Below are positions 34,282 through 50,334 of a stretch of DNA of 64,000 nucleotides, one piece after another. The DNA lies in the NCBI GenBank assembly GCA_900316665.1, contig ONDV01000001.1, positions 1 through 64,000 on the forward strand, in the 5' to 3' direction. Made by a program: the position numbers and the translations under genes. Origin of the DNA: an uncultured Lachnospiraceae bacterium. GTDB lineage: Bacteria > Bacillota > Clostridia > Lachnospirales > Lachnospiraceae. Under the pieces are notes generated by a model that was not told where the DNA came from, searched no databases, and was given only the letters and a program-made list of their open reading frames with translations. Position 1 is the first letter of the stretch. Every line of letters begins with the position of its first letter.

Positions 34282-36045
34282 TTACTCTACATCCTGAAGT
34301 GCAGCTACATCTTCTTCGCCTGTACGTACCTTGACTACCTTGGAGACGTTATATACGAAGATCTTGCCGTCACCTATATGTCCGGTGTAGAGGGCTCTCT
34401 TGGCTGCGTCAATTACCTTATCGACAGGTATCTTTGCTACGATCACTTCAAGCTTCACCTTTGGAAGAAGTGTTGAATCAACGACAGCGCCACGATATCT
34501 CTCTGTAGTACCCTTCTCAATGCCGCAGCCCATTACCTGTGTCATTGTCATTCCGGTTACACCGAGATCATTAAGAGCTTTTTTCAGTGTATCAAATCGT
34601 GCCAGTTTTGCGATAATTACGATCTTATGCATGCCTGTATCAAGTTCAGGTACAAGAGGTGCCTCAGACTTTACAGGTACTGCAGCATTCTTCTTGGCCT
34701 CGCTTGCATTATCATAAGAATCTTCACCGAGGTCAGTATTCTCATTCACATCGACATTCATATCTGTGACATCAGTGATTGCAAATCCGGAGAAAGCTGA
34801 TGTAAGACCATGCTCATGAATATCAAGACCATCTATCTCGACCTCTTCCGGTACACGGAGACCGACTGCCTTGTCAATAATCTTAAAGATAATGAACATT
34901 GTGATCGATACAAAGGCATCGATTGCTATAATTCCAAGAACCTGGATGCCAAGCAGCTTTGCGCCGCCGCCGTAGAAAAGACCCTTCATCACTCCGTCAG
35001 CTCCGTTAGAGAAGAGACCTACAGCAAGAGTGCCCCAGATACCATTTACCATATGTACTGAAATGGCACCAACAGGGTCATCGATCTTTGCTACATTATC
35101 AAAGAATTCAACTGAGAATACTACAAGGAAGCCTGCTATTAATCCGATAAAGAATGCACCTACAGGTGTTACGCAGTCACATCCTGCTGTGATGGCTACA
35201 AGACCGGCAAGTGCCGCATTCATTGTCATCGAAACATCCGGCTTGCCATAACGGAACCATGTGAAAATCATTGCCACAAAGGTTGCTACAGCAGCTGCCA
35301 GGTTTGTGTTCATGAAAGCAAGAGAAGCTGTCTTTGCGTTATCAGCTGTGCTCATGGCGATCGTAGAACCGCCATTGAATCCAAACCAGCAGAACCAGAG
35401 GATAAATACGCCGAGAGCCACGCTGACCATATTTGATCCGGGAATAGCTCTTGCTTTACCGTCTTTATCGTACTTGCCGATTCTTGGTCCGAGAATGGAC
35501 GCACCGATCAGTGCGATTACACCGCCTACGTTATGTACCAGAGATGATCCGGCGAAATCATGATATCCGAGTGTTGAGAGCCAGCCGCCGCCCCATGCCC
35601 AGTGACCTGTCACAGGGTAAATGAGAAGTGATATGCATGCGGAGTAGATGCAGTATGCTTTGAAATTCGTACGCTCTGCCATGGATCCTGAAACAATAGT
35701 AGCTGCTGTCGCGCAGAATACTGTCTCAAAAATTACAAAGCACCAAAGCGGCATTCCCTGAGCTACCGCCGTATTCTTTGCGGTATAGAATGAAGTGTCC
35801 CTGATAAAGAAGTCTGGAGTTCCTATGAACCCTCCGAGTCCGCCATGGAACATAAGTCCGAAGCCGATAAGCCAGAAGCACGGCGTACCTATACAGAAAT
35901 CCATCATATTTTTCATCAGGATGTTACCTGTATTCTTGGCTCTGGTGAGACCTGATTCGCAGAGAGCAAATCCTGCCTGCATAAAATACACCAATGCCGA
36001 ACACAGGAGAACCCAGATGACAGTTGTCAAACTAATCTTATCCAT
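34282..36045 (-). CDS. amt: Ammonium transporter fused to a PII domain
   Basis: Ammonium channel with a covalently attached PII regulator. Residues 1-about 405 form the Amt domain of about 11 helices (MQAGFALCESGLTRAKNTGNI, GHWAWGGGWLS, FNGGSTIAMS). A linker rich in Asp, Asn and Ala follows, then a complete PII domain at about 472-587. In it IEKGTTERYRG is the T-loop and HIGDGKIFV plus VRTGEED are the ATP/trimer motifs. PII position 51, the uridylylated Tyr of GlnK, is Val here, and Gln39 is Glu. Start at 36045 has AGGAGG 8 bp upstream; the ATG at 36051 is only 2 bp from it. Expression probably depends on the leader terminator described separately. Confidence 0.94.
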   Translation of the reverse strand: MDKISLTTVIWVLLCSALVYFMQAGFALCESGLTRAKNTGNILMKNMMDFCIGTPCFWLIGFGLMFHGGLGGFIGTPDFFIRDTSFYTAKNTAVAQGMPLWCFVIFETVFCATAATIVSGSMAERTNFKAYCIYSACISLLIYPVTGHWAWGGGWLSTLGYHDFAGSSLVHNVGGVIALIGASILGPRIGKYDKDGKARAIPGSNMVSVALGVFILWFCWFGFNGGSTIAMSTADNAKTASLAFMNTNLAAAVATFVAMIFTWFRYGKPDVSMTMNAALAGLVAITAGCDCVTPVGAFFIGLIAGFLVVFSVEFFDNVAKIDDPVGAISVHMVNGIWGTLAVGLFSNGADGVMKGLFYGGGAKLLGIQVLGIIAIDAFVSITMFIIFKIIDKAVGLRVPEEVEIDGLDIHEHGLTSAFSGFAITDVTDMNVDVNENTDLGEDSYDNASEAKKNAAVPVKSEAPLVPELDTGMHKIVIIAKLARFDTLKKALNDLGVTGMTMTQVMGCGIEKGTTERYRGAVVDSTLLPKVKLEVIVAKIPVDKVIDAAKRALYTGHIGDGKIFVYNVSKVVKVRTGEEDVAALQDVE

Positions 36046-36094
36046 TTTCATGTCCTCCTATTTTCTTTCATCTACACTTTTTCTATATTGCACG

Positions 36095-36149
36095 AAAAAT
36101 GGCATCTGAGAAAATAATGAAACCATTATCTTCTTAGACGCCCTTGTCC
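36095..36149 (-). promoter_or_regulatory. amt leader: ANTAR-type hairpin overlapping an intrinsic terminator
   Basis: Read leftward: hairpin GGAC-AAGGGC-GTCT (36149-36136), whose hexaloop has A at position 1 and G at position 4. Its loop end and 3' arm form the start of a terminator stem of about 19 bp with one mismatch (5' arm GGCGTCTAAGAAGATAATG, 3' arm ending AGATGCC) followed by ATTTTT at 36100-36095. The two structures exclude each other. Antitermination by the linked ANTAR protein is inferred from the shared motif with gltB and glnN leaders. Confidence 0.7.
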
Positions 36150-36241
36150 GAGAATACCGTATTATTTTTTGATCACACATATCGATCAGTCATTCTGTCG
36201 CATATTTGCATGCTATGTGATACAGTGATCCGTATGTTTTT

Positions 36242-36285
36242 TAAAAAAGAAAAATGCCGGTAAAGCAGCTATCTGCTCGACCGAC
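36242..36285 (-). terminator. Intrinsic terminator after gltD
   Basis: GTCGGT and AGCAG arms pair with CTGCT and ACCGGC, with a small internal loop, followed by ATTTTTCTTTTTT. It lies about 90 bp after gltD. The rest of the 36052-36375 interval holds the amt leader and an AT-rich stretch where I could not place a convincing amt promoter. Confidence 0.75.
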
Positions 36286-36375
36286 ACCTTTGCCGTATTT
36301 CAATTATGTATTGTATACAGTTGACTTATGAATGTAAAGTATTTTTTTTAATCCAAAACTCATAAGCGGTTATCA

Positions 36376-37929
36376 TCAGGCAAGTCCGGAATATCCCATC
36401 AGATATTCATCAACTTCTCTTGCCGCAGAGCGGCCTTCTACTATACCCCAGACCACCAGGGACTGACCTCTTCTCATATCACCCGCGGCAAATACTCCGG
36501 GAACAGAAGTAGCATATTTCCCTTCAGCAGTCTCAGCCACATTTCTCTGGGTACGCTTGATATTGAAAGCCTCGGCCGTATAATCTTCGCATCCTACAAA
36601 TCCTGCGGCAATCAAAAGTATGTCACATGGATATGTCTTTTCAGAGCCTTCAACTTCCACCATCTTACGGTTTTCGAATCTCACCTTCACTGTCGTAACA
36701 GACTTTATCAAGCCGTCTTTTTTAGTCTCTACAGACTTGACAGTTGTCTCGTAAATTCTCGGATCGTGTCCAAAGAGAGCTATAGCCTCCTCCTGACCAT
36801 AATCGGTCTTCAGAGTCTTCGGCCACTCAGGCCAGGGATTTGATTCCGCCCTTTCTGACGGAGGACATGGCATCATCTCAAGCTGTATCACGGACTTTGC
36901 GCCCTGTCTTATAGAAGTAGCCGTGCAGTCATTTCCTGTATCTCCGCCGCCGACGATAATTACATTCTTTCCGGCAGCAAACATCTTTGCACCATCAGGC
37001 GAGAGCTGCTTCTCTTCTTCCTTTGCCGATGTCTTTTTCTTTTTCTTCGAAAATTCCAAAGCCTCGCTTCTTCCGCCTGTCACTGCTCCGCTTAAGAGAT
37101 CTCTTGTGGCCTGTGAGAGATAATCCACGGCATAATAGACTCCGCCGATCTTTGCCGGATCTGCTGCCGGAAGAGATCTCGGTTTTTTTGCGCCGCAGCA
37201 AAGTACGATGGCATCATATTGCTTTTTCAGCTCATCTGCTGTAATATCAACGCCCACATTAACTCCGGTCTTGAAAACAACGCCTTCTTCCTCCATCAGC
37301 TTCTTACGACGGATAATAACCTCCTTCGGCAGCTTCATATTTGGAATACCGTACATAAGAAGTCCGCCGATCTGAGGCTCACGTTCATATACTGTCACAT
37401 TATGACCCCGTCTGTTCAGCCTGTCTGCACAGGCAAGTCCTGCGGGGCCGGCTCCAATCACAGCTACTTTTTTGGAACTGCGGTTTTCAGGTATCCTTGG
37501 CTTTATATATCCCTTTTCAAATGCGGTCTCTATTACATAAAGCTCATTGTCACGGATGGTGACAGGGTCGTCATTCTCACCCTCGACGCAAGCCTTCTCG
37601 CAGAGCGCCGGACATACTCTTCCTGTGAATTCAGGAAAATTATTAGTCTTCTGAAGTCTCGAAAATGCGTATGCAGGATGACTGTGATATACTTCATCAT
37701 TCCATTCGGGTATAAGGTTATGCAGCGGACAACCCGTATACATCCCGGACAATTTCATTCCGGACTGGCAGAGCGGAACGCCGCAGTTCATGCAGCGCGC
37801 CCCCTGTTCTCGTCTTTCTTCTTCCTTAAGCGGCTCATGAAACCACTCATAATTTTCTATTCTCTTCTGAGGATCAATATCTTTGTTATCTTCTCTTTTG
37901 TATTCCAGAAATCCGGTCGGCTTACCCAT
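36376..37929 (-). CDS. gltD: Glutamate synthase small subunit
   Basis: NADPH-oxidising subunit that feeds electrons to GltB. The N-terminal Fe-S region has CMNCGVPLC, GCPLHNLIPEWN and CPALCEKACV. Two Rossmann motifs follow: KVAVIGAGPAGLACADRLNRRGH for FAD, and NVIIVGGGDTGNDCTATSIRQG for NADPH. FAAGDMRRGQSLVVWGI is the C-terminal FAD motif. Length 517 is longer than the usual 480-490. The excess is a Lys-rich segment (FSKKKKKTSAKEEEKQL, about residues 300-316) just before the second nucleotide-binding site. ATAGGAGGCAAAC precedes the ATG. It is 26 bp after gltB, co-transcribed. Confidence 0.96.
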   Translation of the reverse strand: MGKPTGFLEYKREDNKDIDPQKRIENYEWFHEPLKEEERREQGARCMNCGVPLCQSGMKLSGMYTGCPLHNLIPEWNDEVYHSHPAYAFSRLQKTNNFPEFTGRVCPALCEKACVEGENDDPVTIRDNELYVIETAFEKGYIKPRIPENRSSKKVAVIGAGPAGLACADRLNRRGHNVTVYEREPQIGGLLMYGIPNMKLPKEVIIRRKKLMEEEGVVFKTGVNVGVDITADELKKQYDAIVLCCGAKKPRSLPAADPAKIGGVYYAVDYLSQATRDLLSGAVTGGRSEALEFSKKKKKTSAKEEEKQLSPDGAKMFAAGKNVIIVGGGDTGNDCTATSIRQGAKSVIQLEMMPCPPSERAESNPWPEWPKTLKTDYGQEEAIALFGHDPRIYETTVKSVETKKDGLIKSVTTVKVRFENRKMVEVEGSEKTYPCDILLIAAGFVGCEDYTAEAFNIKRTQRNVAETAEGKYATSVPGVFAAGDMRRGQSLVVWGIVEGRSAAREVDEYLMGYSGLA

Positions 37930-37955: not shown

Positions 37956-40900
37956 TCAGGCTCTCATTTCCTCGAATGCTTCTGTGACAGCATGCTCATG
38001 GCTTATGCCCTGTTCCTCAAACTTGCTTATCTCCACAAGCATTCTGTGGTAATCATTAGGAATTATCTTCTTGAAGAAGGGAAGATATTTATCGAAATGA
38101 GTAATCACTTCATTGCCGAGAGCAGAACCCGTCTCTCTTACATAATCATCAAGTATACCTCTGAGCTCTGCCACATCATACTTCTCTGTAACCTCAGTAA
38201 GAGAAACCATATCCTTGTTGATCTTTCTGTAAAGATCATGCTTCATATCAAGCACATAGGCAATGCCGCCTGACATACCGGCTGCCAGGTTCTTGCCTGT
38301 AGGTCCGAGTATTACGGCTCTTCCTCCGGTCATGTATTCAAGACCATGATCTCCACATCCTTCAGCGACAGCCGTAGCTCCGGAGTTTCTCACAAGGAAT
38401 CTCTCGCCGGCTACGCCCTCTATATATGCCTTGCCGCTTGTAGCTCCGTAAAGCGCCACATTTCCGATGATTATATTTTCAGAAGGCTTATAAGCCGCTC
38501 CCTTAGGAGGAACCACAACGAGCTTTCCGCCGGAAAGTCCCTTTCCGAAACCATCGTTTGCATCGCCTTCCAGCCTGAGCGTCATTCCTTTTGGAATAAA
38601 TGCTCCGAACGACTGGCCGCCGGCGCCGACGCAGTTGACTACGAACATATCCTCATCCAAAGTTTCAGCGCCATATTTTTCAGTAATTACAGAGCCAAGA
38701 ATTGTTCCAACCGATCTATCCGTACCTTTGACTCTGACAGTAGCTGAATGATGTTCCTTCTCTCCGATGGCATTCTCGAATTCAGGAATCAGGACAGCTT
38801 CATCGACCGTCTTCTCGAGATGGAAATCATAGACCTTTGCCGGATCAAAATGCGAACCGCTTGCGCCTGCAAATCTGGTATCAAGTATTCCCGAAAGATC
38901 GACAGAACCTGCTCTCTTGGTGATGGGATGATTTCTTACTTCGAGACAGTCAGTTCTTCCTATCATCTCGCTTACAGTATGGAATCCGAGATATGCCATG
39001 ATCTCACGCATTTCCTGAGCCACGAAGCACATGAAATTGATCACATGCTCAGGCTGACCCTTGAAGCGCTTGCGAAGCTCCGGATTCTGAGTAGCTATTC
39101 CGACAGGACATGTATCTTTTGAGCATACTCTCATCATCATGCATCCCATAGCTACCAGAGCTGCTGTGCCGAAACCATATTCCTCAGCGCCAAGAAGTGC
39201 TGCTATAGCCACATCTCTTCCGGTCATCAGCTTGGAATCAGCTTCAAGTATCACCCTATCTCTGAGTCCGTTCTCCATCAGAGTCTGATGAGCCTCGGCA
39301 ATACCAAGCTCCCAGGGGAGACCTGCGTGATGAACTGATGAATAAGGAGCAGCTCCGGTACCTCCGTCATAACCCGAAATAAGAATTACCTGAGCGCCTG
39401 CCTTTGCAACGCCGCTGGCTATGGTTCCCACTCCTGCTTCAGACACAAGCTTTACGGAAATACGCGCCTTTCTGTTTGCATTCTTAAGATCATAAATAAG
39501 CTGCGCCAGATCCTCTATCGAATATATGTCATGGTGAGGAGGCGGCGAGATAAGAGATACTCCCGGAGTGGAATATCTGGTTCTCGCAACCCAGGGATAT
39601 ACCTTTCTTCCCGGGAGGTTACCGCCTTCACCGGGCTTTGCGCCCTGAGCCATCTTGATCTGGATCTCATCGCCGGATATCAGATAATCTTCCGTCACGC
39701 CGAATCGTCCGGAAGCCACCTGCTTGACGGCAGAATTTCTTTCCGTACCGAATCTCTCAGGATCTTCTCCGCCTTCACCTGTGTTTGAACGTCCGCCGAT
39801 GCGGTTCATGGCGACTGCCAGCGTCTCATGAGCTTCTTTTGAAATAGCTCCGAAAGACATGGCTCCGGTCTGAAATCTCTTCACGATTGATTCTATCGGC
39901 TCTACCTCCTCAACCGGAATAGGCTTGTTGACCTGGCGGAATTTCATAAGTCCCCTCAGAGTATGAGGTTTCTCGTCATCCACTCCGGATGAATAATCCT
40001 TGAAAAGTTTATAATCTTTTCTGCGAACTGCCTCCTGCAGAGTCACTATGGTCTGCGGCCTGAACATATGGTCTTCAGCATCGGGACCGGATCTCAGTTT
40101 ATGGAATCCGGTAGAATCGATTGTTGTATCCTCCGTAAGTCCGAGCGGATCGTATGCTCTGTTGTGTCTGAATGTAACGCTTTCCGCTATCTCACCGAGC
40201 CCTATTCCGCCTACCCTTGAAACTGTGCCCGTGAAGTATTTGTCTATTACTTCTTTTGACAGACCGATGGCCTCGAAGATCTTTGCGGACTGATAGGACT
40301 GCAGCGTCGATATTCCCATCTTGGCTGATATCTTTACTATTCCCTTGAGGATTGCCTTGTTGTAATCCTCTATGGCCGTATGATAATCCTTGTCAAGTAT
40401 TCCGGAATCAATAAGCTCCGAAATACACTCCTGAGCTAAATAAGGATAGATCGCGCGCGCGCCGAATCCCAGCAGGGTAGCGAACTGATGAACGCTCCTG
40501 GGTTCTCCGGATTCAAGTATCAGAGATACCGCAGTCCTCTTCTTGGTTCTGACCAGATGCTGCTCAACAGAAGACACTGCCAGAAGAGAGGGAATAGGCA
40601 CATGGTTTTCATCGATCCCTCTGTCTGAAAGGATTATAATGTTATAACCTCTCTCAAAAGCACGATCTACCGATACATTCAGCTGATCCAACGCCTTTTC
40701 AAGCGAAGTGTTCTTGTAATAGATTATCTGCAGGGTGACCGCACGAAATCCGGGCTGGTCAAGAGATCTTATCTTCATCAGGTCAACGCCTGTAAGTATA
40801 GGGTTATTTACCTCCAGTACCCGGCAGTTCTGGCTGTTCTCTTCCAGCAGATTTCCATCAGAACCTATATAAACAGTCGTATCCGTTACTATCTTCTCAC

Positions 40901-42470
40901 GCAGTGAATCTATAGGCGGATTTGTAACCTGAGCGAAGAGCTGCTTGAAATAATTGAAGAGTGGCTGATGTTTCTCGGAAAGCACCGCAAGAGGCACATC
41001 ATGTCCCATGGACACGGTCGGCTCTACAGCATTTTCAGCCATGGGAAGAATATTGTCATTAACATCCTCATAAGTATATCCGAATACCTTATAAAGCCTG
41101 TCTCTCTGTTTCTGGTCGTAGACCGGTATCTTCTTGTTGGGAATAGCCAGATCTTCCAGATGAAGAAGCGACATATCAAGCCACTCGCCGTAAGGCTTTC
41201 TTGTGGAATAATACCGCTTGCATTCATCATCAGGAATCATCCTGCCTGCTTTTGTATCTATAAGGAGGATCCTGCCCGGCATAAGGCGCGATTTCTTTAC
41301 GATATGTTCGGCAGGTATGTCAAGAACGCCGACCTCGGAAGACAGGATCAGTCTGTTGTCATCAGTTATATAGTATCTGGAAGGACGCAGACCGTTTCTG
41401 TCAAGTGAAGCGCCGACAAGGTCTCCGTCTGAGAAGAGGATAGCTGCCGGTCCGTCCCATGGTTCCATCATGGTGGCGTAATAATGATAGAAATCCTTTT
41501 TTTCACGGCTCATGAATCCATTGTGTTTCCAAGGCTCCGGGATGGTAGCCATCACCGCAAGAGGAAGATCCATGCCTGACATATACAGGAATTCCAGAGT
41601 GTTGTCGAGTACGGCTGAGTCTGATCCTTTCGTGTCTATCACAGGGCAGATCTTGTCCATATCGTCCTCGAGATACGGCGACTTCATCGTCTCCTCACGA
41701 GCCAGCATACGATCCATATTTCCCCGGATAGTATTGATCTCACCGTTATGCGCGATCATTCTGTAGGGATGAGCACGTTCCCAGCTGGGCGTCGTATTGG
41801 TCGAGAATCTGCTGTGTACTATGGAAATAGCGCTTTCGTAATCAGGATCCTCAAGATCAGTGTAGAATTTTCTCAGCTGACCCACGAGAAACATTCCCTT
41901 ATATACGACAGTACGCGAAGAAAGTGAGCAGATGTAGGTGTCACTCTCTGACTGCTCGAATTCACGCATGGTGACATAAAGTTTTCTGTCAAAATCTATT
42001 CCGCGATTCACGTTCTCCGGTCTTCCCAAAAATGCCTGGGAAATGTAAGGCATGCAGTCATAAGCAACCTTTCCGAGAATTCCCGGATTCGTCGGCACGT
42101 CTCTCCATCCGAGAAAAGGAATTCCGTTCTTTTCTGCAATGACCTGGAACATTCTCTGCATCATGGTACGCTTTACGCGATCCTGAGGCAGAAAGAACAT
42201 ACCTATTCCATAATCTCCCTCTCCGCCCAGTGTAATACCTGACTTAAGGCAAGCCTTGCTGAAGAATTTGTGTGATATCTGCAGAAGTATGCCGACACCA
42301 TCTCCGACCTTGCCGCTTGCGTCTTTGCCCGCACGATGCTCCAGACGTTCTACTATATGAAGCGCGTCGTCCACATTTCTGTGATCCTTATGGCCGTCGA
42401 TATTTACTACCGTACCGATACCGCAGGCATCATGCTCTCTTTCATTGTATAGCAGGGATGGATTTTTCAT
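37956..42470 (-). CDS. gltB: Glutamate synthase large subunit
   Basis: Makes two glutamates from glutamine and 2-oxoglutarate. The glutaminase domain is Ntn-type with catalytic Cys15 in DACGIG, so a 14-residue propeptide must be removed. The central domain and FMN/2-oxoglutarate domain (MKFRQVNKPIPVEEVEPI, SNTGEGGEDPERF, KPGEGGNLPG, GASGYDGGTGAAP-like ISGYDGGTGAAP) follow. The 3Fe-4S cluster ligands lie in CSKDTCPVGIATQ. The C-terminal beta-helix domain (GNVALYGATSGKAYIEGVAGERF) ends the 1504 residues, the normal length. ACAGGAGGAAAACTAATA precedes the ATG. It has its own promoter and a long attenuated leader after the ANTAR gene. Confidence 0.98.
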   Translation of the reverse strand: MKNPSLLYNEREHDACGIGTVVNIDGHKDHRNVDDALHIVERLEHRAGKDASGKVGDGVGILLQISHKFFSKACLKSGITLGGEGDYGIGMFFLPQDRVKRTMMQRMFQVIAEKNGIPFLGWRDVPTNPGILGKVAYDCMPYISQAFLGRPENVNRGIDFDRKLYVTMREFEQSESDTYICSLSSRTVVYKGMFLVGQLRKFYTDLEDPDYESAISIVHSRFSTNTTPSWERAHPYRMIAHNGEINTIRGNMDRMLAREETMKSPYLEDDMDKICPVIDTKGSDSAVLDNTLEFLYMSGMDLPLAVMATIPEPWKHNGFMSREKKDFYHYYATMMEPWDGPAAILFSDGDLVGASLDRNGLRPSRYYITDDNRLILSSEVGVLDIPAEHIVKKSRLMPGRILLIDTKAGRMIPDDECKRYYSTRKPYGEWLDMSLLHLEDLAIPNKKIPVYDQKQRDRLYKVFGYTYEDVNDNILPMAENAVEPTVSMGHDVPLAVLSEKHQPLFNYFKQLFAQVTNPPIDSLREKIVTDTTVYIGSDGNLLEENSQNCRVLEVNNPILTGVDLMKIRSLDQPGFRAVTLQIIYYKNTSLEKALDQLNVSVDRAFERGYNIIILSDRGIDENHVPIPSLLAVSSVEQHLVRTKKRTAVSLILESGEPRSVHQFATLLGFGARAIYPYLAQECISELIDSGILDKDYHTAIEDYNKAILKGIVKISAKMGISTLQSYQSAKIFEAIGLSKEVIDKYFTGTVSRVGGIGLGEIAESVTFRHNRAYDPLGLTEDTTIDSTGFHKLRSGPDAEDHMFRPQTIVTLQEAVRRKDYKLFKDYSSGVDDEKPHTLRGLMKFRQVNKPIPVEEVEPIESIVKRFQTGAMSFGAISKEAHETLAVAMNRIGGRSNTGEGGEDPERFGTERNSAVKQVASGRFGVTEDYLISGDEIQIKMAQGAKPGEGGNLPGRKVYPWVARTRYSTPGVSLISPPPHHDIYSIEDLAQLIYDLKNANRKARISVKLVSEAGVGTIASGVAKAGAQVILISGYDGGTGAAPYSSVHHAGLPWELGIAEAHQTLMENGLRDRVILEADSKLMTGRDVAIAALLGAEEYGFGTAALVAMGCMMMRVCSKDTCPVGIATQNPELRKRFKGQPEHVINFMCFVAQEMREIMAYLGFHTVSEMIGRTDCLEVRNHPITKRAGSVDLSGILDTRFAGASGSHFDPAKVYDFHLEKTVDEAVLIPEFENAIGEKEHHSATVRVKGTDRSVGTILGSVITEKYGAETLDEDMFVVNCVGAGGQSFGAFIPKGMTLRLEGDANDGFGKGLSGGKLVVVPPKGAAYKPSENIIIGNVALYGATSGKAYIEGVAGERFLVRNSGATAVAEGCGDHGLEYMTGGRAVILGPTGKNLAAGMSGGIAYVLDMKHDLYRKINKDMVSLTEVTEKYDVAELRGILDDYVRETGSALGNEVITHFDKYLPFFKKIIPNDYHRMLVEISKFEEQGISHEHAVTEAFEEMRA

Positions 42471-42522: not shown

Positions 42523-42583
42523 AAAAAAAGCCGTCAGCAAACAGACAGATCTCAATCTGTCCACTCGCAGACGCCATTGTCTG
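42523..42583 (-). promoter_or_regulatory. gltB leader: ANTAR-type hairpins overlapping an intrinsic terminator
   Basis: Hairpin one is CAGAC-AATGGC-GTCTG (42583-42568), a hexaloop with A1 and G4 as in known ANTAR targets. A second stem GACAGAT/ATCTGTC lies at 42561-42544. The loop end and 3' arm of hairpin one (GGCGTCTGC, 42575-42567) can instead pair with GCTGACGGC (42538-42530), 7 of 9 positions, followed by TTTTTTT. Hairpin one and the terminator are therefore alternatives. The ANTAR gene ends about 80 bp upstream. Confidence 0.75.
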
Positions 42584-42610
42584 AATATCATATTTATTTT
42601 TTGCTTTGCT

Positions 42611-42639
42611 ATTTTATAACTGAATCATATTCATGTCAA
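42611..42639 (-). promoter_or_regulatory. gltBD promoter
   Basis: TTGACA (42639-42634), 17-bp spacer, TAAAAT (42616-42611). It gives a leader of about 130 nt that contains the ANTAR-type element. Confidence 0.75.
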
Positions 42640-42664: not shown

Positions 42665-43219
42665 TTATATCATTGCAATGACCATCTCAGCTGTCTCGAC
42701 AAGAGACCTTCCCATATCCATGCTGTTCTTCTGAATATATCTGAATGCTTCCGGTTCTGTCATATGGTTTCGCTCCATCAGAAGAGCCTTGGCATCGTCT
42801 ATCTTCTTCTGCTCTTCAGGCGTACGCTTTCTCGGCATTTCGCGGCGCTTCTTCTTCTCGCGCCGCATTATGTGCTCCATCTGGGCAAGCATCATAAAAA
42901 CCGTATCTGTAAGCGCTGTACCCTTAACCGGCAGCGTCAGCGCCATCACGTCCGATTCTCGCCTCCCGGCTACAGACTGTGCGCTGTCAATCAGAAGAAT
43001 ACTGAAGAACTGCGGCAGATCCGCTAACAATCCTGTATAATCCATATCCTTAAGCCTTACAGGGCATATAAGGATACCTGTATTTCCCTCCTGCATCTCA
43101 CGAAGCGCCTCGCGTCCGTTAGACACAATCTGTATGTTCTGTATACCAGCATGCATCAGGACAGATCGTATCTTTTCCGACATTCTTTCGCCCGGAAATG
43201 CAATAATGATCTGACTCAA
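42665..43219 (-). CDS. ANTAR-domain RNA-binding antiterminator (NitR type)
   Basis: Predicted RNA-binding protein that prevents leader termination. The C-terminal ANTAR domain is clear (about 125-180: EEQKKIDDAKALLMERNHMTE, EAFRYIQKNSMDMGRSLVETAE). The N-terminal 115 residues look like a response-regulator receiver but lack the acidic pair in strand one, and the phosphoacceptor Asp is replaced by Cys52 (GILICPVRL); a Lys (LPVKGTAL) remains. So signalling is probably not by phosphorylation. A basic linker (RREKKKRREMPRKR) joins the domains. Start is TTG with GGCGGGAAG upstream. Order GlnA-like - ANTAR - gltBD matches the glnA-nitR-gltAB arrangement of solvent-producing clostridia, where NitR controls nitrogen genes. 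Confidence 0.92.
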   Translation of the reverse strand: MSQIIIAFPGERMSEKIRSVLMHAGIQNIQIVSNGREALREMQEGNTGILICPVRLKDMDYTGLLADLPQFFSILLIDSAQSVAGRRESDVMALTLPVKGTALTDTVFMMLAQMEHIMRREKKKRREMPRKRTPEEQKKIDDAKALLMERNHMTEPEAFRYIQKNSMDMGRSLVETAEMVIAMI

Positions 43220-43284: not shown

Positions 43285-44589
43285 TCAGATCCTGTGCAGA
43301 TACTCACGTATCTCCCAGTCTGTAACTTCGCCGGCATAGCGTTCCCATTCGCATGCTTTTTTGTCGGAATATATCCTGACATAATTTTCTCCGCATACCT
43401 CATTCATGAATTTGTCTCCGGAGAAAACATCTATGGCATCTCTCAGCGTTCTGGGAAGCGTACCCGTGCTTGTATCAGGTTCCGGAAGCGAAGTCTTCTT
43501 TTCTACACCATCAAGTCCGGCTGCTATCATACATGAAATGACAAGATAAGGATTTGTGGCGCCGTCCGGAAGCTCCCATTCTATAGCGGACTTTCCGTTT
43601 TCACCCTTCATCACTCTTACCGGAGCATTGTAATCATCCAAAGACCAGTAAATCCCCTTTTCGGTATAGAACCTTCCGCCGCTTCTCTTATAAGAATTGA
43701 CAATGGGATTTGCAATTGCAGTCATGGCTGCCATATGATCAAGTATTCCTGCCAGAAAATGCTTTCCGTCTTCTGACAGACCGGTCGGATCAGACTTGTC
43801 TGTGATCTTGTCCTTGCTTCCGTCAGCAGCAACAATATTAAGAGCCATGGCTGAGCCCGGCAGATCTGTTCTGGGCTTCGGCATAAAAGTAGCATGAAAA
43901 CCATGACGGCCGGCAATTGTTCTCACGGTATTTCTGAGCGTAAGTATCTGGTCTGCCATCTTGACGCCTTTTGCGCGTCTGAAAGCGACGGCATGCTGCG
44001 CGGGAGCATCTTCATGGTGAGACGATTCCATCTCAAAGCCCAGCTCCTCGAGAGCATATATTATGTCACGTCTGGCATTTTCACCCGAATCAAGAGGCGC
44101 CATATCAAGGTATAAAGCTCTCTCTTTTGTAGTATTTGTAGGATAGCCGTCCTCGTCCGTATCAAAGAGGAAGAATTCGCATTCAGGATTCATCTCGAAC
44201 TCAAATCCCATACTCTTTGCGCGTTTTAAAACATTTCTAAGAATAAACCTGGGACTCGGGGTTATAAGATTTCCTTTCTCGTCAGCCAGATCACAGAGGA
44301 ATCTCGCCACCTTGCCCTGCTGAGGTCTCCAGGGAAGTATGGCAAATGTGTCCGGATCAGGAATAAGATATATATTTCTGAGGCCAAACTCTCTTGCGCC
44401 GAGTATATGATAACCATCCACCGAACATCTGCCGTCCATAGCCTTTACTATCTCTGAGCCGGTAACAGCTATATTTCTCAGCACTCCAAAAAAATCGGAA
44501 AACTGCAGGCGTATAAATTTGACATCGTCATCTTCTATCATCTGCATTATTTCTTCTCTAGGCATATTCATGTCTTTATCACGCTGCAT
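43285..44589 (-). CDS. Glutamine synthetase I-like protein with degenerate active site
   Basis: A 434-residue homologue of GlnA. Colinear family segments include KFIRLQFSDFFGVLRNIAV, ECEFFLFDTD, HATFMPKP and NPIVNSYKR. Several catalytic positions are changed: the DGSSI loop reads DGYHI; the QHE metal ligand is Ala200 (AQHAV); the GSGMH metal/substrate His is Ala249 (GSAMA); the NRSP Arg is Tyr320 (DYNAP); and the RxExR Arg is Glu339 (IEWEL). Glu136, Glu138, Glu193 and Glu337 remain. Genuine glutamine synthesis therefore seems unlikely; a sensor or altered specificity is possible. AAAGGAGA precedes the ATG. It lies 46 bp after pyrG and 65 bp before the ANTAR gene. Confidence 0.85.
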   Translation of the reverse strand: MQRDKDMNMPREEIMQMIEDDDVKFIRLQFSDFFGVLRNIAVTGSEIVKAMDGRCSVDGYHILGAREFGLRNIYLIPDPDTFAILPWRPQQGKVARFLCDLADEKGNLITPSPRFILRNVLKRAKSMGFEFEMNPECEFFLFDTDEDGYPTNTTKERALYLDMAPLDSGENARRDIIYALEELGFEMESSHHEDAPAQHAVAFRRAKGVKMADQILTLRNTVRTIAGRHGFHATFMPKPRTDLPGSAMALNIVAADGSKDKITDKSDPTGLSEDGKHFLAGILDHMAAMTAIANPIVNSYKRSGGRFYTEKGIYWSLDDYNAPVRVMKGENGKSAIEWELPDGATNPYLVISCMIAAGLDGVEKKTSLPEPDTSTGTLPRTLRDAIDVFSGDKFMNEVCGENYVRIYSDKKACEWERYAGEVTDWEIREYLHRI

Positions 44590-44634: not shown

Positions 44635-46248
44635 TCAGCCTTTATTCGTTCTATATTCCACAGCGGCCTGAACCAACCCCGAAAACAGAGGATGTGCCTT
44701 ATTGGGGCGTGACTTGAATTCCGGATGAGCCTGCGTGCCGATATAGAAAGGATGATCGGTAAGCTCTATCATCTCGACAATTCTGTCGTCCGGAGACACA
44801 CCGCACAGCTTCATTCCTTTTTTCGTCATTATCTCCCTGTAATCATTATTGAATTCATATCTGTGTCTGTGACGCTCGGATATATCCTTCTTCCCGTACA
44901 GCTTATATGCAATCGATGTCTCATCAAGCACACACGGATATGCGCCCAGTCTCATTGTACCGCCCAGATTCTCGACATCGCGCTGTTCCGGCATAAGATC
45001 AATGACAGGATGAAGGGTATCGGGAGCAAACTCCGTCGAATTGGCATCATGATACGCAAGCACATCCCGCGCAAATGATACGACTGCCATCTGCATGCCA
45101 AGGCATATTCCAAGGAAGGGGATCTTTTTCTCTCTGGCATAACCTGCTGCCATGATCATACCCTGTGTTCCTCTGTCTCCGAAGCCGCCGGGGATCAGTA
45201 TGCCATCCACACCGTCAAGAAGTTCTTCGCAGCCCTTTTCTTCGACCTTCTCTGAATCGACCCATCTGATATCTACATCCGTCATAGTCTTGATTCCGCC
45301 ATGCTTAAGCGCCTCTACGACAGAAAGATAAGCATCATGCAGAGTGATATATTTACCGACTATGGCTATCTCCGCCTTATGCTTGGGATGGCGGAGATCC
45401 TCGACCATTTTTTCCCATTCCTTAAGTCCGACAGGCTCGCTCTCAGGAAGGTTCAGGCATTCAAGGACCGCATCAGCAAGGTGCTCCTTCTCCATAAGAA
45501 GCGGTACGGAATATAGGGAATCAGCATCCAGATTCTGAAGCACATGATTTGCAGGCACATTGCAGAAGAGCGCTATCTTGTCTTTTATAGACTGGGTAAG
45601 AGGCATCTCTGTCCGGCAGACAAGAATATCGGGCTGAATTCCGATTTCCAGGCATTTCTTTACAGATGTCTGCGTGGGCTTTGTCTTCATCTCTCCTGAT
45701 ACACGAAGATAAGGGATCAGGGTCACATGGATCATTATGGCATTTTCTCTGCCCACATCATGCTGAAACTGCCTTATTGCCTCCAGAAAGGGCTGGCTCT
45801 CTATATCTCCGACAGTTCCGCCCACTTCAATTATCGCTATACGCTCGTCATTTGGATCACTGCTTCTGAAAAACCTGGACTTTATTTCATTTGTGATATG
45901 GGGAATGACCTGGACGGTACCGCCGCCGTAATCTCCGTGTCTTTCCTTATTTAATACAGACCAGTAGATCTTTCCGGATGTTACGTTGGCATTATGATCC
46001 AGGGACTCATCAATAAAGCGCTCATAATGACCAAGATCCAGATCTGTCTCCGTACCGTCATCCGTAACAAAAACCTCACCATGCTGAATAGGATTCATGG
46101 TACCCGGATCCACATTGATATAAGGATCGAATTTCTGCATTGTCACACGATAGCCGCGGGCTTTCAAAAGTCTTCCGAGCGAAGCTGCCGTAATGCCTTT
46201 CCCCAGTCCTGACACCACGCCACCTGTAACAAAAACATATTTTATCAT
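44635..46248 (-). CDS. pyrG: CTP synthase
   Basis: Converts UTP to CTP using glutamine and ATP. The synthetase domain begins [23 protein letters not shown], with [16 protein letters not shown] and [16 protein letters not shown]. The C-terminal class I glutaminase has GGFGDRG, the nucleophile Cys in FLGICLGMQ and the His/Glu pair in AHPEFKSRP. Length 537 is standard. CAGGAGGACAGG precedes the ATG. It has its own promoter and a leader terminator, and runs toward the GlnA-like and ANTAR genes. Confidence 0.98.
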
Positions 46249-46277
46249 CCTGTCCTCCTGATCTTTTGTTTTTTACC

Positions 46278-46316
46278 AAAAAAGCGCCGGGCAAAAGACT
46301 TTAATGCCTTGGCACT
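46278..46316 (-). terminator. Leader terminator (attenuator) before pyrG
   Basis: Read leftward, AGTGCC pairs with GGCGCT (one wobble) with an inner GGC/GCC pairing, followed by TTTTTTGG. It lies between the pyrG promoter and gene, so it should attenuate pyrG. In Bacillus pyrG, CTP-sensitive stuttering on an initial GGG run controls such a terminator; I see no initial G-run here. Confidence 0.65.
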
Positions 46317-46330
46317 TATAAACTGTCATT

Positions 46331-46359
46331 AATATACATTCACTCGGCGAAAATGTAAA
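46331..46359 (-). promoter_or_regulatory. pyrG promoter
   Basis: TTTACA (46359-46354), 17-bp spacer, TATATT (46336-46331), giving a leader of about 75 nt. Confidence 0.65.
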
Positions 46360-46399
46360 CCATAAAAACTTTTTCAGCAGACGGATTTCAATATTTCTG

Positions 46400-46428
46400 T
46401 TGACAAAACAATTTCACTTTGATAATAT
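46400..46428 (+). promoter_or_regulatory. glnN promoter
   Basis: TTGACA (46400-46405), 17-bp spacer, TAATAT (46423-46428). Transcription would start near 46435, right at the base of the leader hairpin. Confidence 0.8.
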
Positions 46429-46436
46429 CGCTTCAA

Positions 46437-46480
46437 CAGGGCAAAGGCGCTCTGGGCATAGCCCGGAGCGCTTTTTCTAT
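46437..46480 (+). promoter_or_regulatory. glnN leader: ANTAR-type hairpin overlapping an intrinsic terminator
   Basis: Hairpin CAGGGC-AAAGGC-GCTCTG (46437-46454), a 6-bp stem with a hexaloop having A1 and G4. Its loop end and 3' arm (GCGCTC and GGGC) pair instead with GCCC and GAGCGC to make a terminator followed by TTTTTCTATTTTT. The same alternative-structure logic is seen before gltB and amt. The hairpin starts within a few nt of the predicted transcript end, leaving no room for a first ANTAR hairpin. Confidence 0.7.
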
Positions 46481-46530
46481 TTTTCGGAGTTTTTCCGATT
46501 TAGCGGTATAAGTGGAAAGGAGCTTATAAA

Positions 46531-48636
46531 ATGGCAGATATCTCAATTCCGGAAATCTACGGAAGCATGGTCTTCAATGACAAGGTTATGCATGAGCGTC
46601 TCCCCAAGGATACCTACAAGGCTATCCACAAGACGATCAAGGACGGCACCAGCCTTACACTTGAAGTTGCAAATACTGTTGCAGCTACAATGAAGGAATG
46701 GGCAATCGAACATGGTGCCACACATTTCACACACTGGTTCCAGCCAATGACAGGCTTCACTGCTGAAAAGCATGACAGCTTCATCAGCCCTCAGTCAGAC
46801 GGGACCGTGATCATGAGTTTCTCAGGAAAAGAGCTCATCAAGGGCGAGCCTGATGCATCTTCATTCCCTTCAGGAGGACTTCGCGCGACATTCGAGGCTC
46901 GCGGATATACAGCATGGGATCCCAGCTCACCTGCATTCGTAAAAGACGGCACTCTCTATATACCCACCGCATTCTGCTCCTACTCCGGAGAGTCACTCGA
47001 CAAGAAGACTCCTCTTCTTCGTTCCATGGATGCTTTGAACCATGAAGCAGTCAGACTTCTTCATCTTCTCGGCAAGACCGATGTCACACGTGTAGACACC
47101 ACAGCCGGAAGCGAACAGGAATATTTCCTTATTGATAAAGATCTCTATATGCAGAGAAAGGATCTTATCTTCTGCGGTCGCACTCTTATCGGCGCTCCTG
47201 CTCCTAAGGGACAGGAAATGGAAGATCATTACTTCGGTGTGCTGAAGCCAAAGGTTTCGTCTTTCATGCATGACCTCGACGAAGAGCTCTGGAAGCTCGG
47301 CGTACCGGCTAAGACAAAGCACAATGAAGTTGCGCCTTCTCAGCACGAGCTGGCTCCCATATTTGAGACCGCAAACGTCGCAGTTGATCATAACCAGCTG
47401 ACTATGGAAATCATGAAAAAGGTTGCTGACAAGCATCACATGGCATGCCTCCTTCATGAGAAGCCTTTCGAGGGAATCAACGGTTCCGGAAAGCATGTGA
47501 ACTGGTCTATGTCAACAGATACAGGCGAAAACCTTCTCGAGCCCGGAAAGACACCTGCCGAAAATACTCAGTTCCTTGTTTTCCTTCTGGCAACGATCGC
47601 AGCTGTAGATAACTATGCTGATCTTATGAGAATTTCCGTAGCATCAGCAGGAAATGATCACCGTCTCGGAGCAAATGAAGCGCCTCCCGCTGTTATCTCC
47701 ATTTTCGTCGGCGATGAGCTCGAGCAGATCCTCGATGCTATCGACAAAGGCATCAGTCCTGAGGATGCAGAGCATACTCTTATGGATATAGGTGCAAAGA
47801 TCCTTCCTACGTTTATGAAGGATACTACCGACAGAAACAGGACTTCACCGTTTGCATTCACAGGAAATAAATTCGAGTTCCGTATGCCCGGTTCTTCCGT
47901 GTCAGTAGCTGATCCTATTGTAATTCTCAATACTGCCGTAGCAGAATCGCTCAGAAAGATCAGAAAGACACTTGAAGGAGTGCCTGAAGCAGATCTTCAG
48001 CAGAACATAATGAAACTACTTCAGGAAATCATGAATGAGCATAAGAAGGTCATCTTCAACGGCAACGGCTATACCGATGAATGGATTTCGGAAGCTGAAA
48101 AGAGAGGTCTTTATAATCTTAAGTCCCTTCCTGAAGCTATGCCTTCACTCCTTGCAGAAAAGAACGTAAAGCTCTTCACCCAGTTCCATATCTTTGATAA
48201 GAAAGAACTTGAAGCCCGTTATGAGATCCTGCTTGAGAATTATTCCAAGACTATTCATATCGAAAGCCTTACAATGCTCGATATTGTCAAGAAAGACTTC
48301 ATCCCCGGACTTCTTGATTATATGTCAGACGTCACTGCTGAAGCGATTTCAAAGAAGGAACTTTCTGACAGCCTGTCAGTCGGTCTCGAAACCGATCTTC
48401 TTTCTTCACTTTCATCTTCATCTGATGACATTATGAAGAGTGTCAAGAAACTTGATGATGATACAAAAAATGCAGAAGCATTAACTGATGAAAAGACCAA
48501 GGCTACAGATTATCATGATGTGATCTTAAGCGATATGGATGATTTGAGAAAAGTTGTAGATACAGCGGAAGCGCTTATTCCTGCCGCATATCTTGATTAT
48601 CCTACATATGATCAGCTGTTGTTCTCACTTCGCTGA
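46531..48636 (+). CDS. glnN: Glutamine synthetase type III
   Basis: ATP-dependent synthesis of glutamine from glutamate and ammonia; type III enzymes are large dodecamers found in Bacteroides and many Clostridia. Type III signatures are present: HFTHWFQPMTGFTAEKHDSF, the Ser/Gly-rich PSGGLRATFEARGYTAWDP, KHNEVAPSQHELAPIFE, NGSGKHVNWSMST and NRTSPFAFTGNKFEFR. All canonical metal and substrate motifs look intact, unlike the GlnA-like paralogue. Length 701 is normal. AAGGAGCTTATAAA precedes the ATG. It is likely the working glutamine synthetase here and is controlled through its leader terminator; asnB follows without a terminator. Confidence 0.97.
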   Translation: MADISIPEIYGSMVFNDKVMHERLPKDTYKAIHKTIKDGTSLTLEVANTVAATMKEWAIEHGATHFTHWFQPMTGFTAEKHDSFISPQSDGTVIMSFSGKELIKGEPDASSFPSGGLRATFEARGYTAWDPSSPAFVKDGTLYIPTAFCSYSGESLDKKTPLLRSMDALNHEAVRLLHLLGKTDVTRVDTTAGSEQEYFLIDKDLYMQRKDLIFCGRTLIGAPAPKGQEMEDHYFGVLKPKVSSFMHDLDEELWKLGVPAKTKHNEVAPSQHELAPIFETANVAVDHNQLTMEIMKKVADKHHMACLLHEKPFEGINGSGKHVNWSMSTDTGENLLEPGKTPAENTQFLVFLLATIAAVDNYADLMRISVASAGNDHRLGANEAPPAVISIFVGDELEQILDAIDKGISPEDAEHTLMDIGAKILPTFMKDTTDRNRTSPFAFTGNKFEFRMPGSSVSVADPIVILNTAVAESLRKIRKTLEGVPEADLQQNIMKLLQEIMNEHKKVIFNGNGYTDEWISEAEKRGLYNLKSLPEAMPSLLAEKNVKLFTQFHIFDKKELEARYEILLENYSKTIHIESLTMLDIVKKDFIPGLLDYMSDVTAEAISKKELSDSLSVGLETDLLSSLSSSSDDIMKSVKKLDDDTKNAEALTDEKTKATDYHDVILSDMDDLRKVVDTAEALIPAAYLDYPTYDQLLFSLR

Positions 48637-48670: not shown

Positions 48671-48725
48671 GGATGATCTCATGATCTCTGCGGCACAGAA
48701 GCCACCGGATCATGAGATTCATTCG
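48671..48725. repeat. Long inverted repeat in the glnN-asnB interval
   Basis: Arms around TGATCTCATGATC and GATCATGAGATTCA pair over about 15 bp with one bulge, enclosing about 20 nt. No T-run follows. It may be a processing site or regulatory hairpin; its loop contains a small GGC-ACAGAA-GCC hairpin. Confidence 0.6.
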
Positions 48726-48747
48726 GTTTAGAAAAGAGGTACATGTA

Positions 48748-50334
48748 ATGTGCTCCATTCTGGCGTGGTGCCGAAAAGACGCGCCTAAGGACAAATTTCA
48801 GGAATCCCTCATGCGAACCACATCAAGAGGTCCTGATGCTACCAAGACGATTGATACGGGAAAAGGTCTGATGGGCTTCAACAGGCTGGCCATAATGGGA
48901 CTGACAGCCTCAGGCATGCAGCCCTTTCAGTTGGGAGGCGATGCTTTAGTCTGTAACGGAGAGATCTATAATTTCCGTCCGAGAAAGCAGGAGCTTATCA
49001 CAAAGGGTTATACTTTCTCATCTGACAGCGACTGCGAGATTCTGCTTCCTCTTTATAGAGAGCTTGGTTGCAGCATGTTTGAGACGCTTGACGCTGAATA
49101 TGCTTTAGTTTTATATGACAGCGTCTCAGATTCCTATGTTGCCGCAAGAGATCCGATCGGCATCAGACCTCTCTACTATGGTTATGATGAAAGCGGAGCC
49201 ATAATCTTTGCTTCAGAGCCCAAGAACCTTGTCGGCTTAACTGAAAAAATCATGCCTTTCCCTCCCGGTCATTATTATAAGGACGGCGAATTCGTGCAAT
49301 ATGCTGATCCCGCTCATGTAGATCATATCAGGCATGACAGTATGGAACTTGTAGCAGGCAATATTCATGATCTCCTAGTTGCCGGTGTCGAAAAGAGGCT
49401 TGATTCTGACGCTCCGGTCGGATTTCTCCTCTCCGGAGGTCTCGACAGTTCGCTCGTATGCGGCATCTCTGCAAAGCTGATGAAAAAACCTCTTGAGACC
49501 TTTGCAATTGGTATGGACATTGATGCCATCGACTTAAAATATGCCAGACAGGTTGCTGACTATATAGGTTCAAACCATCATGAAGTGATTATTTCAAGAG
49601 ACGATGTAATAAATGCTCTTGAGCCTGTTATCGCTGCACTTGGGACATATGACATCACTACGATCAGAGCCTCCATCGGTATGTATCTGTGCTGTAAATG
49701 GATACATGAGAATACTGATGTCCGCGTTCTTCTTACCGGTGAAATAAGCGATGAGTTATTTGGTTACAAATATACCGACTTTGCCCCGAATGCTTTTGCT
49801 TTCCAGGAAGAAGCTGAAAAAAGAGTGCGTGAGCTTCATATGTATGATGTCCTGAGGGCTGACCGCTGCATCAGCGTCAATTCTCTTGAGGCGCGTGTCC
49901 CCTTCGGCGATCTTGCCTTTGTGGATTATGTAATGTCAATTGATCCTGAGATGAAGCTAAATAAATACAACAAGGGCAAGTATCTTCTCCGCCATGCTTT
50001 TGAGAACGACCACCTTATTCCTGACGATATTCTCTGGAGAGAAAAGGCAGCTTTCTCTGACGCTGTAGGTCACTCTTTAAAGGATGATCTGGCGGATTAT
50101 GCTGAGAGCCATTTCACTGACATCGAATTCCAGGAAAAGCGTAAAAAATACACACACGCACAGCCCTTCACGAAAGAATCTCTTCTCTATCGTGAGATCT
50201 TCGAGAAATATTATCCCGGTCAGTCACAGATGGTCAAAGATTTCTGGATGCCAAACAAATCATGGGATGGTCTTCAGAACGTCAATGATCCATCAGCAAG
50301 AGTTCTTTCAAACTACGGTGCAAGTGGAATCTGA
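48748..50334 (+). CDS. asnB: Asparagine synthase (glutamine-hydrolysing)
   Basis: Makes asparagine from aspartate, ATP and glutamine. The ATG at 48748 gives the required N-terminal Cys2 (MCSILAW), the Ntn glutaminase nucleophile, and AAGAGG lies 8 bp upstream; the frame open from 48712 is rejected. Glutaminase motifs are FNRLAIMGL, LVCNGEIYNFR and SDSDCEILL. The synthetase domain has the pyrophosphate loop LLSGGLDSSLVCG, ARQVADYIGSNHHEVII, TGEISDELFGYKYT and LEARVPFGD. Length 528 is close to E. coli AsnB (554). It follows glnN by 111 bp, so glutamine is produced and used by adjacent genes. Confidence 0.96.
   Translation: MCSILAWCRKDAPKDKFQESLMRTTSRGPDATKTIDTGKGLMGFNRLAIMGLTASGMQPFQLGGDALVCNGEIYNFRPRKQELITKGYTFSSDSDCEILLPLYRELGCSMFETLDAEYALVLYDSVSDSYVAARDPIGIRPLYYGYDESGAIIFASEPKNLVGLTEKIMPFPPGHYYKDGEFVQYADPAHVDHIRHDSMELVAGNIHDLLVAGVEKRLDSDAPVGFLLSGGLDSSLVCGISAKLMKKPLETFAIGMDIDAIDLKYARQVADYIGSNHHEVIISRDDVINALEPVIAALGTYDITTIRASIGMYLCCKWIHENTDVRVLLTGEISDELFGYKYTDFAPNAFAFQEEAEKRVRELHMYDVLRADRCISVNSLEARVPFGDLAFVDYVMSIDPEMKLNKYNKGKYLLRHAFENDHLIPDDILWREKAAFSDAVGHSLKDDLADYAESHFTDIEFQEKRKKYTHAQPFTKESLLYREIFEKYYPGQSQMVKDFWMPNKSWDGLQNVNDPSARVLSNYGASGI

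Follow-up and report, generated by a model that had tools for sequence, protein, structure and literature searches.

The closest described counterparts of the elements considered here are the RNA targets of ANTAR antiterminators. Those of EutV consist of two hexaloop hairpins; deletion of one of these, P1, abolished induction, and linkers of 3 or 14 nt between the hairpins fail (Ramesh 2012, PMC3369931). A single hexaloop is enough for EutV to bind, and antitermination needs two in succession (Walshe 2022, PMC8934654). ANTAR targets have already been described upstream of genes for PII, ammonium transporters, and glutamine and glutamate synthases, as have the occurrence of several such elements in one genome and the overlap of the other hairpin, P2, with the terminator (Ramesh 2012, PMC3369931). 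The account in PMC6316151 further cites NitR of C. saccharobutylicum as an ANTAR antiterminator that induces GS/GOGAT genes on nitrogen limitation (Stutz 2007).

We examined a nitrogen-assimilation cluster in the light of these systems. It lies in the window, by which we mean the whole stretch of 64,000 nucleotides that was analysed, a part of contig C22 of a 2.07 Mb genome in 97 contigs from a Lachnospiraceae bacterium of the rumen. As read from Pfam matches, the minus strand carries pyrG, glnA, an ANTAR gene, gltB, gltD and amt-PII in that order, and glnN and asnB lie divergently on the plus strand, with the following genes and leader features:

34282–36051, minus strand: amt-PII fusion, an ammonium transporter with a C-terminal PII domain, target (Pfam)
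36095–36154, minus strand: amt element 2, TTCTcGGAC[AAGGGC]GTCTaAGAA, loop 36145–36140, overlapping a terminator (model R1, 42.2 bits)
36250–36298, minus strand: amt element 1, CGGC[AAAGGT]GTCG, loop 36291–36286, overlapping a terminator (hexaloop-over-terminator scan)
36310–36338, minus strand: predicted amt promoter, TTTACA 36338–36333, 17 nt, TACAAT 36315–36310 (10/12 consensus)
36376–37929, minus strand: gltD-like gene for the small subunit, following gltB in the same unit (Pfam)
37956–42470, minus strand: gltB, glutamate synthase large subunit, target (Pfam)
42523–42575, minus strand: gltB intrinsic terminator, its 5′ arm running from the hexaloop GGC through the hairpin 3′ arm (fold)
42568–42583, minus strand: gltB antiterminator hairpin CAGAC[AATGGC]GTCTG, predicted ANTAR-type (sequence; model R1)
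42611–42639, minus strand: predicted gltB promoter, TTGACA 42639–42634, 17 nt, TAAAAT 42616–42611 (11/12 consensus)
42665–43219, minus strand: ANTAR protein, 184 aa, with a receiver-like domain lacking the phospho-Asp, a coiled coil and an ANTAR domain (Pfam PF03861)
43285–44589, minus strand: glnA, encoding a type I glutamine synthetase, next upstream neighbor of the ANTAR gene and candidate sensor (Pfam)
44635–46248, minus strand: pyrG, CTP synthase, first gene of a probable pyrG-glnA-ANTAR unit (Pfam)
46400–46428, plus strand: predicted glnN promoter, TTGACA 46400–46405, 17 nt, TAATAT 46423–46428 (promoter match)
46437–46454, plus strand: glnN antiterminator hairpin CAGGGC[AAAGGC]GCTCTG, at the predicted transcript 5′ end (sequence; R1)
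46443–46482, plus strand: glnN intrinsic terminator, stem 46443–46475 followed by a U-rich tract (fold z −5.3)
46531–48636, plus strand: glnN, type III glutamine synthetase, target (Pfam)
48712–50334, plus strand: asnB, glutamine-hydrolysing asparagine synthetase, downstream of glnN (Pfam)

The leaders of gltB, amt-PII and glnN are very probably ANTAR-operated one-hairpin transcription attenuators with GlnA as their likeliest sensor, a reading in which we infer protein binding, read-through, the direction of control and the link to GlnA. Four elements were found in the window, one ahead of gltB, one ahead of glnN and two in tandem in the amt-PII leader. In each, a hairpin carries an AANGGC/T hexaloop, and an intrinsic terminator takes its 5′ arm from this loop and the hairpin's 3′ arm. 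The preliminary description of this DNA had reported hairpins at gltB (AATGGC), amt (AAGGGC) and glnN (AAAGGC), all of which are present on the strands it assigned; its observation that the loop GGC and the 3′ arm double as the 5′ arm of the terminator is borne out by the folds and by the covariation of both helices, and it overlooked the more upstream of the two amt elements (element 1) and the wider regulon. In all four elements the lowest-energy fold is the terminator, at −23 to −27 kcal/mol; the lone hairpin accounts for −5 to −9. For instance, the gltB hairpin (5′ arm 42583–42579, loop 42578–42573) folds alone at −5.0 kcal/mol and its terminator (U-tract 42529–42523) at −24.2 kcal/mol (z −2.9); the glnN hairpin (loop 46443–46448) reaches −8.9 kcal/mol alone, and amt element 1 has a fold z of −5.1.

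We built a covariance model, R1, trained on this genus and one relative. A direct search of the window with R1 recovered precisely these four elements, all of which are in its training set, including gltB at 42524–42585 (40.8 bits, sequence in the training set), amt element 1 (28.2 bits) and glnN at 46436–46478 (29.1 bits). A search of Rfam at gathering and relaxed thresholds recovered no relevant family match to the hairpins. Elsewhere in the source genome a fifth element (C39:15634–15681, L064) lies ahead of a putative 2-aminoethylphosphonate ABC transporter ATPase (TIGR03265 above cut-off), which suggests an organic-nitrogen scavenging part of the regulon; R1 matches in the same genome at E>0.04, some of them pairs from opposite strands of a single site, were classed as plain terminators. 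Between the two amt elements, the minus strand of 36155–36245 has a strong fold with a long GATCAC...GTGATC hairpin (whole region z −4.3).

Plain counting of the AANGGC string is uninformative (153 in the window vs 110 expected). The hexaloop-over-terminator arrangement itself is not due to chance: a scan of 218 kb of sequence from the genus and a single relative, open to any loop sequence, yielded 22 hexaloop hairpins over strong terminators, 16 of them with A1/G4 and only 6 with the remaining 15 base combinations together. We then used an alignment of 20 diverse elements (alignment A1) for analysis of pairing and covariation. The middle strand is paired with the 5′ arm in 86.7% of cells, 5 of 6 pairs being altered on both sides; for its pairing with the terminator 3′ arm the figures are 87.5% and 7 of 10. 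A shift of either partner by 1–3 columns drops pairing to 27–63%. These percentages are biased upward, the elements having been collected by scanning for hairpins, a bias to which ANTAR co-occurrence, the invariant loop bases and the association with genes are less exposed. With regard to the P2 part of an ANTAR antiterminator RNA, the short stem with an A1/G4 hexaloop is present in all four window elements, and its overlap with and exclusion of an intrinsic terminator are found in the folds and in the covariation of both helices.

The preliminary description had proposed conservation and covariation of the hairpins in relatives as a test: each of the seven congeners with an ANTAR gene has the hairpin-terminator design, and both helices covary in the 20 aligned elements. 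In loci picked by gene, without regard to the motif, an element lies ahead of gltB in 8/8 ANTAR-bearing genomes of the genus (window genome included), ahead of the amt-PII orthologue in 6/6 (as a tandem pair in G000, G003, G004 and G005), and ahead of glnN or asnB-glnN in 8/8 cluster leaders of ANTAR-bearing members. It is absent from the second glnN paralogue of the genus in the 8 loci examined. G002, the sole congener without an ANTAR gene, lacks gltB, amt and the regulated glnN alike and keeps only this second paralogue. The pyrG leader carries the element in 6 of 7 congeners, the seventh (G003) having a degenerate loop; pyrG heads pyrG-glnA-ANTAR in most of these six, which points to autoregulation. 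In the window pyrG leader (46249–46360, minus strand) a promoter match (TTTACA-17-TATATT) and a terminator-like hairpin are present and no closing A1/G4 hexaloop was found; the leader here may no longer have the switch, or have it in changed form. The loops seen across the genus are AAAGGC, AAGGGC, AATGGC, AATGGT and AAAGGT, with AAGGGT, AAAGAA, AAAGAC, AATGAC and AAAGAG as further variants. We also observed tandem elements with the loops AAAGGC and AAAGAG immediately ahead of glnA in RUG12483 (L003:8547–8670).

The feature that distinguishes these elements, overlooked in the preliminary description, is the absence of the partner hairpin P1. Predicted sigma-70 promoters matching at least 9 of 12 consensus positions lie within 110 nt of 71 of 93 elements versus 8.4 in shuffles, and the stem begins a median of 10 nt past the −10 box (at most 12 nt in 48 of the 71). 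Transcription typically starts about 6–8 nt past the −10 box; with the start so predicted, the stem of most elements would begin between about +1 and +8. In the window, 8 nt separate the end of the −10 box from the stem at glnN and 14 nt at amt element 1; at gltB the predicted start lies about 20 nt ahead of the hairpin, with no A1/G4 hexaloop hairpin in between. The 60 nt scanned upstream hold A1/G4 hexaloops in 8 of 93 elements versus 5.6 in shuffles, which is the chance level. The two amt elements, about 145 nt apart and each with a separate terminator, are a tandem switch, not a P1-P2 pair. Judged by the predicted promoters, then, no P1 stands a short linker upstream (5–12 nt in E. faecalis eut). 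As a positive control, the same scan recovered no two-hairpin element in eut loci (G187, G246, G211) or in other two-ANTAR genomes, so the claim that P1 is absent rests on promoter position.

EutV, the best-studied case, requires P1 and so stands against a one-hairpin switch, and P1 and P2 occur together in all characterised ANTAR antiterminators (PMC3369931). The elements might instead be ordinary two-hairpin antiterminators whose transcripts start further upstream than predicted and whose P1 is degenerate or not a hexaloop; a hairpin is indeed possible just upstream in the gltB leaders of G003 and G004. We consider this unlikely: in most of the 93 elements a consensus promoter stands directly ahead of the hairpin, placing the −10 box where P1 would be, upstream hexaloops do not exceed chance, and the hairpins of G003 and G004 lie over the predicted start and are not common to the other congeners. 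One-hairpin nitrogen ANTAR systems in clostridia were not found in the literature searched. Within that literature, the predicted one-hairpin, 5′-terminal architecture with a GlnA-linked pseudo-receiver ANTAR protein looks like a new variant.

A search of related genomes with a covariance model had been suggested along with the original proposal. Of 250 Lachnospiraceae genomes, each from a different genus, 70 gave R1 matches at E≤10⁻³, mainly ahead of nitrogen genes. The genome-wide search scores only some first-look candidates and has known misses, such as the window glnN element, recovered by direct search. We read the downstream genes for 69 of the best matches in other genera (E below about 3×10⁻⁴): 48 precede glnN (20), amt (10), gltB (7), asnB (6), pyrG (4) or glnA (1), and Pfam and N-terminal sequence place others ahead of five gdhA-type glutamate dehydrogenases and one carA (carbamoyl-phosphate synthase small chain). 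The rest lie ahead of, among others, amino-acid permease genes and one for a nitrilase-type hydrolase, except for two at contig ends that have no readable downstream gene. Matches at E≤10⁻³ occur in 68 of 219 ANTAR-bearing versus 2 of 31 ANTAR-less genomes of the family (p=0.002) and, class-wide, in 20 of 73 versus 2 of 75 (p=1.3×10⁻⁵; p=6×10⁻⁵ with the own family removed); about one-third of ANTAR-bearing family genomes thus yield a match at this threshold, with few candidates scored and some missed. The two family genomes that have a match and no ANTAR gene are 81% and 70% complete. In a class-level genome, G319, a second hexaloop, AGAC[AAAGCG]GTCT, lies over a terminator upstream of the R1 match before a PII-amt unit (L185), showing tandem switches outside Lachnospiraceae too.

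That the attenuators are worked by some other factor, be it a different RNA-binding protein or a small-molecule riboswitch, is an improbable alternative, even given the want of an Rfam match and the two class-level genomes that have elements without an ANTAR gene. One of these, G295, has its element ahead of a GATase gene of the glutamate-synthase type, and its ANTAR gene may be missing from the assembly only; the other, G299, has 6% contamination. Element presence otherwise tracks ANTAR genes, the only ANTAR gene of the source genome sits inside the regulated cluster, and a hairpin of 16–18 nt is below the size of a typical aptamer. Moreover, the invariant A1 and G4 are, as the preliminary description held of known ANTAR targets, the bases required by NasR and EutV (PMC3369931).

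Among the 69 matches from other genera, A1 is kept in 68 and A2, G4 and the closing C-G pair in all 69, with N3 free. As position 3, the first terminator pair, varies while A1, A2 and G4 do not, the terminator does not explain the invariant bases. Loop positions 5–6 tend to co-vary with their terminator partners (GGC with GCC, GGT with ACC or ACT), and it is by changing along with these partners that the loop comes to be mostly GGC. The AANGGC loop, put forward earlier as new, is thus largely the known A1/G4 pattern plus two bases that have to match the 3′ arm of the terminator. It is most improbable that the elements are mere terminators of upstream transcripts with fortuitous A-rich loops (an A-tract and U-tract giving AAA...TTT): although amt element 1 lies about 80 nt past gltD, which it might terminate, and loop A bases can pair with a U-tract, a promoter mostly intervenes between upstream gene and element, placing the terminator inside a new transcript, the position nearest the terminator helix is free and A1/A2/G4 are fixed, the opposite of what terminator pairing predicts, and the hairpin arm outside the terminator covaries as well.

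The ANTAR gene of the window is the only one in the genome (PF03861, E=8.3×10⁻¹⁸, 64.4 bits vs a cut-off of 27.3), and in phmmer searches its product matches Rv1626 and EutV over almost the full length. At the position of the EutV phospho-acceptor Asp it has a Pro, and 35 other glnA-linked ANTAR sequences mostly have Gly, Pro or another non-Asp residue there; the acidic pair near the N-terminus is also lost in the alignment with relatives. By these residues, the protein is a predicted pseudo-receiver, as is AmiR. Among the RNA contacts of EutV, the Met plug (M172) is kept, Y164 is replaced by F/H, and in most sequences R168 is replaced by Q, R175 by G and R177 by S/T/N (residue list from PMC8934654); with several contact residues changed, binding cannot be assumed.

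The adjacency of this gene to gltB, stated in the preliminary description, is correct, but glnA is its more conserved neighbor: in 36 of the 37 ANTAR loci sampled the ANTAR gene lies directly behind a glnA homologue, at a distance of −4 to 140 nt. At the one locus that differs, L138, the protein resembles EutV and retains the Asp. Further, G001 and G006 (L042, L046, L005, L006) have a second type of both GlnA and ANTAR protein that is nearer to other genera (41% identity for ANTAR, 57% for GlnA) than to congeners (18% and 32%), and the two genes appear, on sequence grounds, to be co-inherited. We note that both genomes have this different GlnA-ANTAR pair and yet keep one-hairpin elements, which offers a natural test of protein-RNA co-specificity. 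The conserved linkage and apparent co-inheritance suggest GlnA as the glutamine sensor; by analogy it would be the likeliest and most economical one for the ANTAR protein. The AmiC-AmiR pair provides one analogy, that of an ANTAR protein gated by its partner. The B. subtilis GS-TnrA pair provides a second, for glutamine synthetase as sensor (PMC6316151).

We accordingly propose the following switch. By default, the nascent leader RNA would fold as the terminator and transcription would stop. When nitrogen, sensed as glutamine, is scarce, the ANTAR protein would be released from glutamine-loaded GlnA, and the single ANTAR protein of the cell could bind the AANGGC/T hexaloop hairpin once this is clear of RNA polymerase. 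The bound hairpin would trap the loop and 3′ arm required by the terminator, letting RNA polymerase read on into amt, gltBD and glnN-asnB. Control by phosphorylation would be absent, with the neighboring GlnA as the likeliest sensor. The direction of control, on when nitrogen is short, is taken from NitR of C. saccharobutylicum as cited in PMC6316151. Speculatively, a hairpin at the 5′ terminus might need no recruitment hairpin, being the first RNA to leave the polymerase.

A bolder and more tentative proposal, possible but on balance doubtful, is that these elements represent a P1-independent ANTAR class, in which one hexaloop at the extreme 5′ end is enough and GlnA, encoded in the same operon, acts directly as the gate on a pseudo-receiver ANTAR protein. 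If true, Lachnospiraceae would have a circuit from glutamine synthetase to RNA over glnN, gltB, amt, asnB, pyrG and gdhA, with GlnA as a feedback-inhibited glutamine sensor. A large natural set of single hexaloops at the message start makes the role of P1 directly testable, R1 singles out the nitrogen regulon of Lachnospiraceae, and a concrete hypothesis for nitrogen sensing is provided for a major gut and rumen bacterial family. Searches based on two hairpins, including the 2012 survey, would probably overlook the one-hairpin form.

The idea of a regulon is right and mostly published in kind: a shared ANTAR-type switch on gltB, amt-PII and glnN is supported by conservation, gene association and ANTAR co-occurrence, whereas the inclusion of amt-PII and glnN and the reuse of the loop in the terminator, for which novelty had been claimed, have precedents (Ramesh 2012, PMC3369931). 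As in EutV/eut of Enterococcus faecalis, NasR/nasF and AmiR/amiE, an A1/G4 hexaloop P2 lies at the base of the terminator and is mutually exclusive with it (PMC3369931), and, as in EutV and AmiR, the protein combines receiver-like, coiled-coil and ANTAR parts. Unlike the targets of EutV, NasR and AmiR, these elements have no P1 and no 5–12 nt linker, P2 lying at the predicted transcript 5′ end; unlike EutV, the protein has Pro/Gly for the phospho-acceptor Asp and several changed RNA-contact residues. Several elements per genome are likewise predicted for the nitrogen ANTAR regulons of Desulfotomaculum acetoxidans, D. reducens and Pelobacter carbinolicus, and the targets in that survey overall include PII, amt, and glutamate and glutamine synthase genes (Ramesh 2012). 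Those regulons follow a two-hairpin model, unlike the single hairpin here, where asnB, pyrG, carA, gdhA and the aminoethylphosphonate transporter are added as targets. The elements at gltB and glnN and the adjacency of the ANTAR gene to glnA would fit a control of GS/GOGAT genes like that cited for NitR of C. saccharobutylicum. Finally, in the minimal-site analysis EutV binds one hexaloop in vitro and takes two for antitermination (Walshe 2022, PMC8934654); here, one is encoded per terminator.
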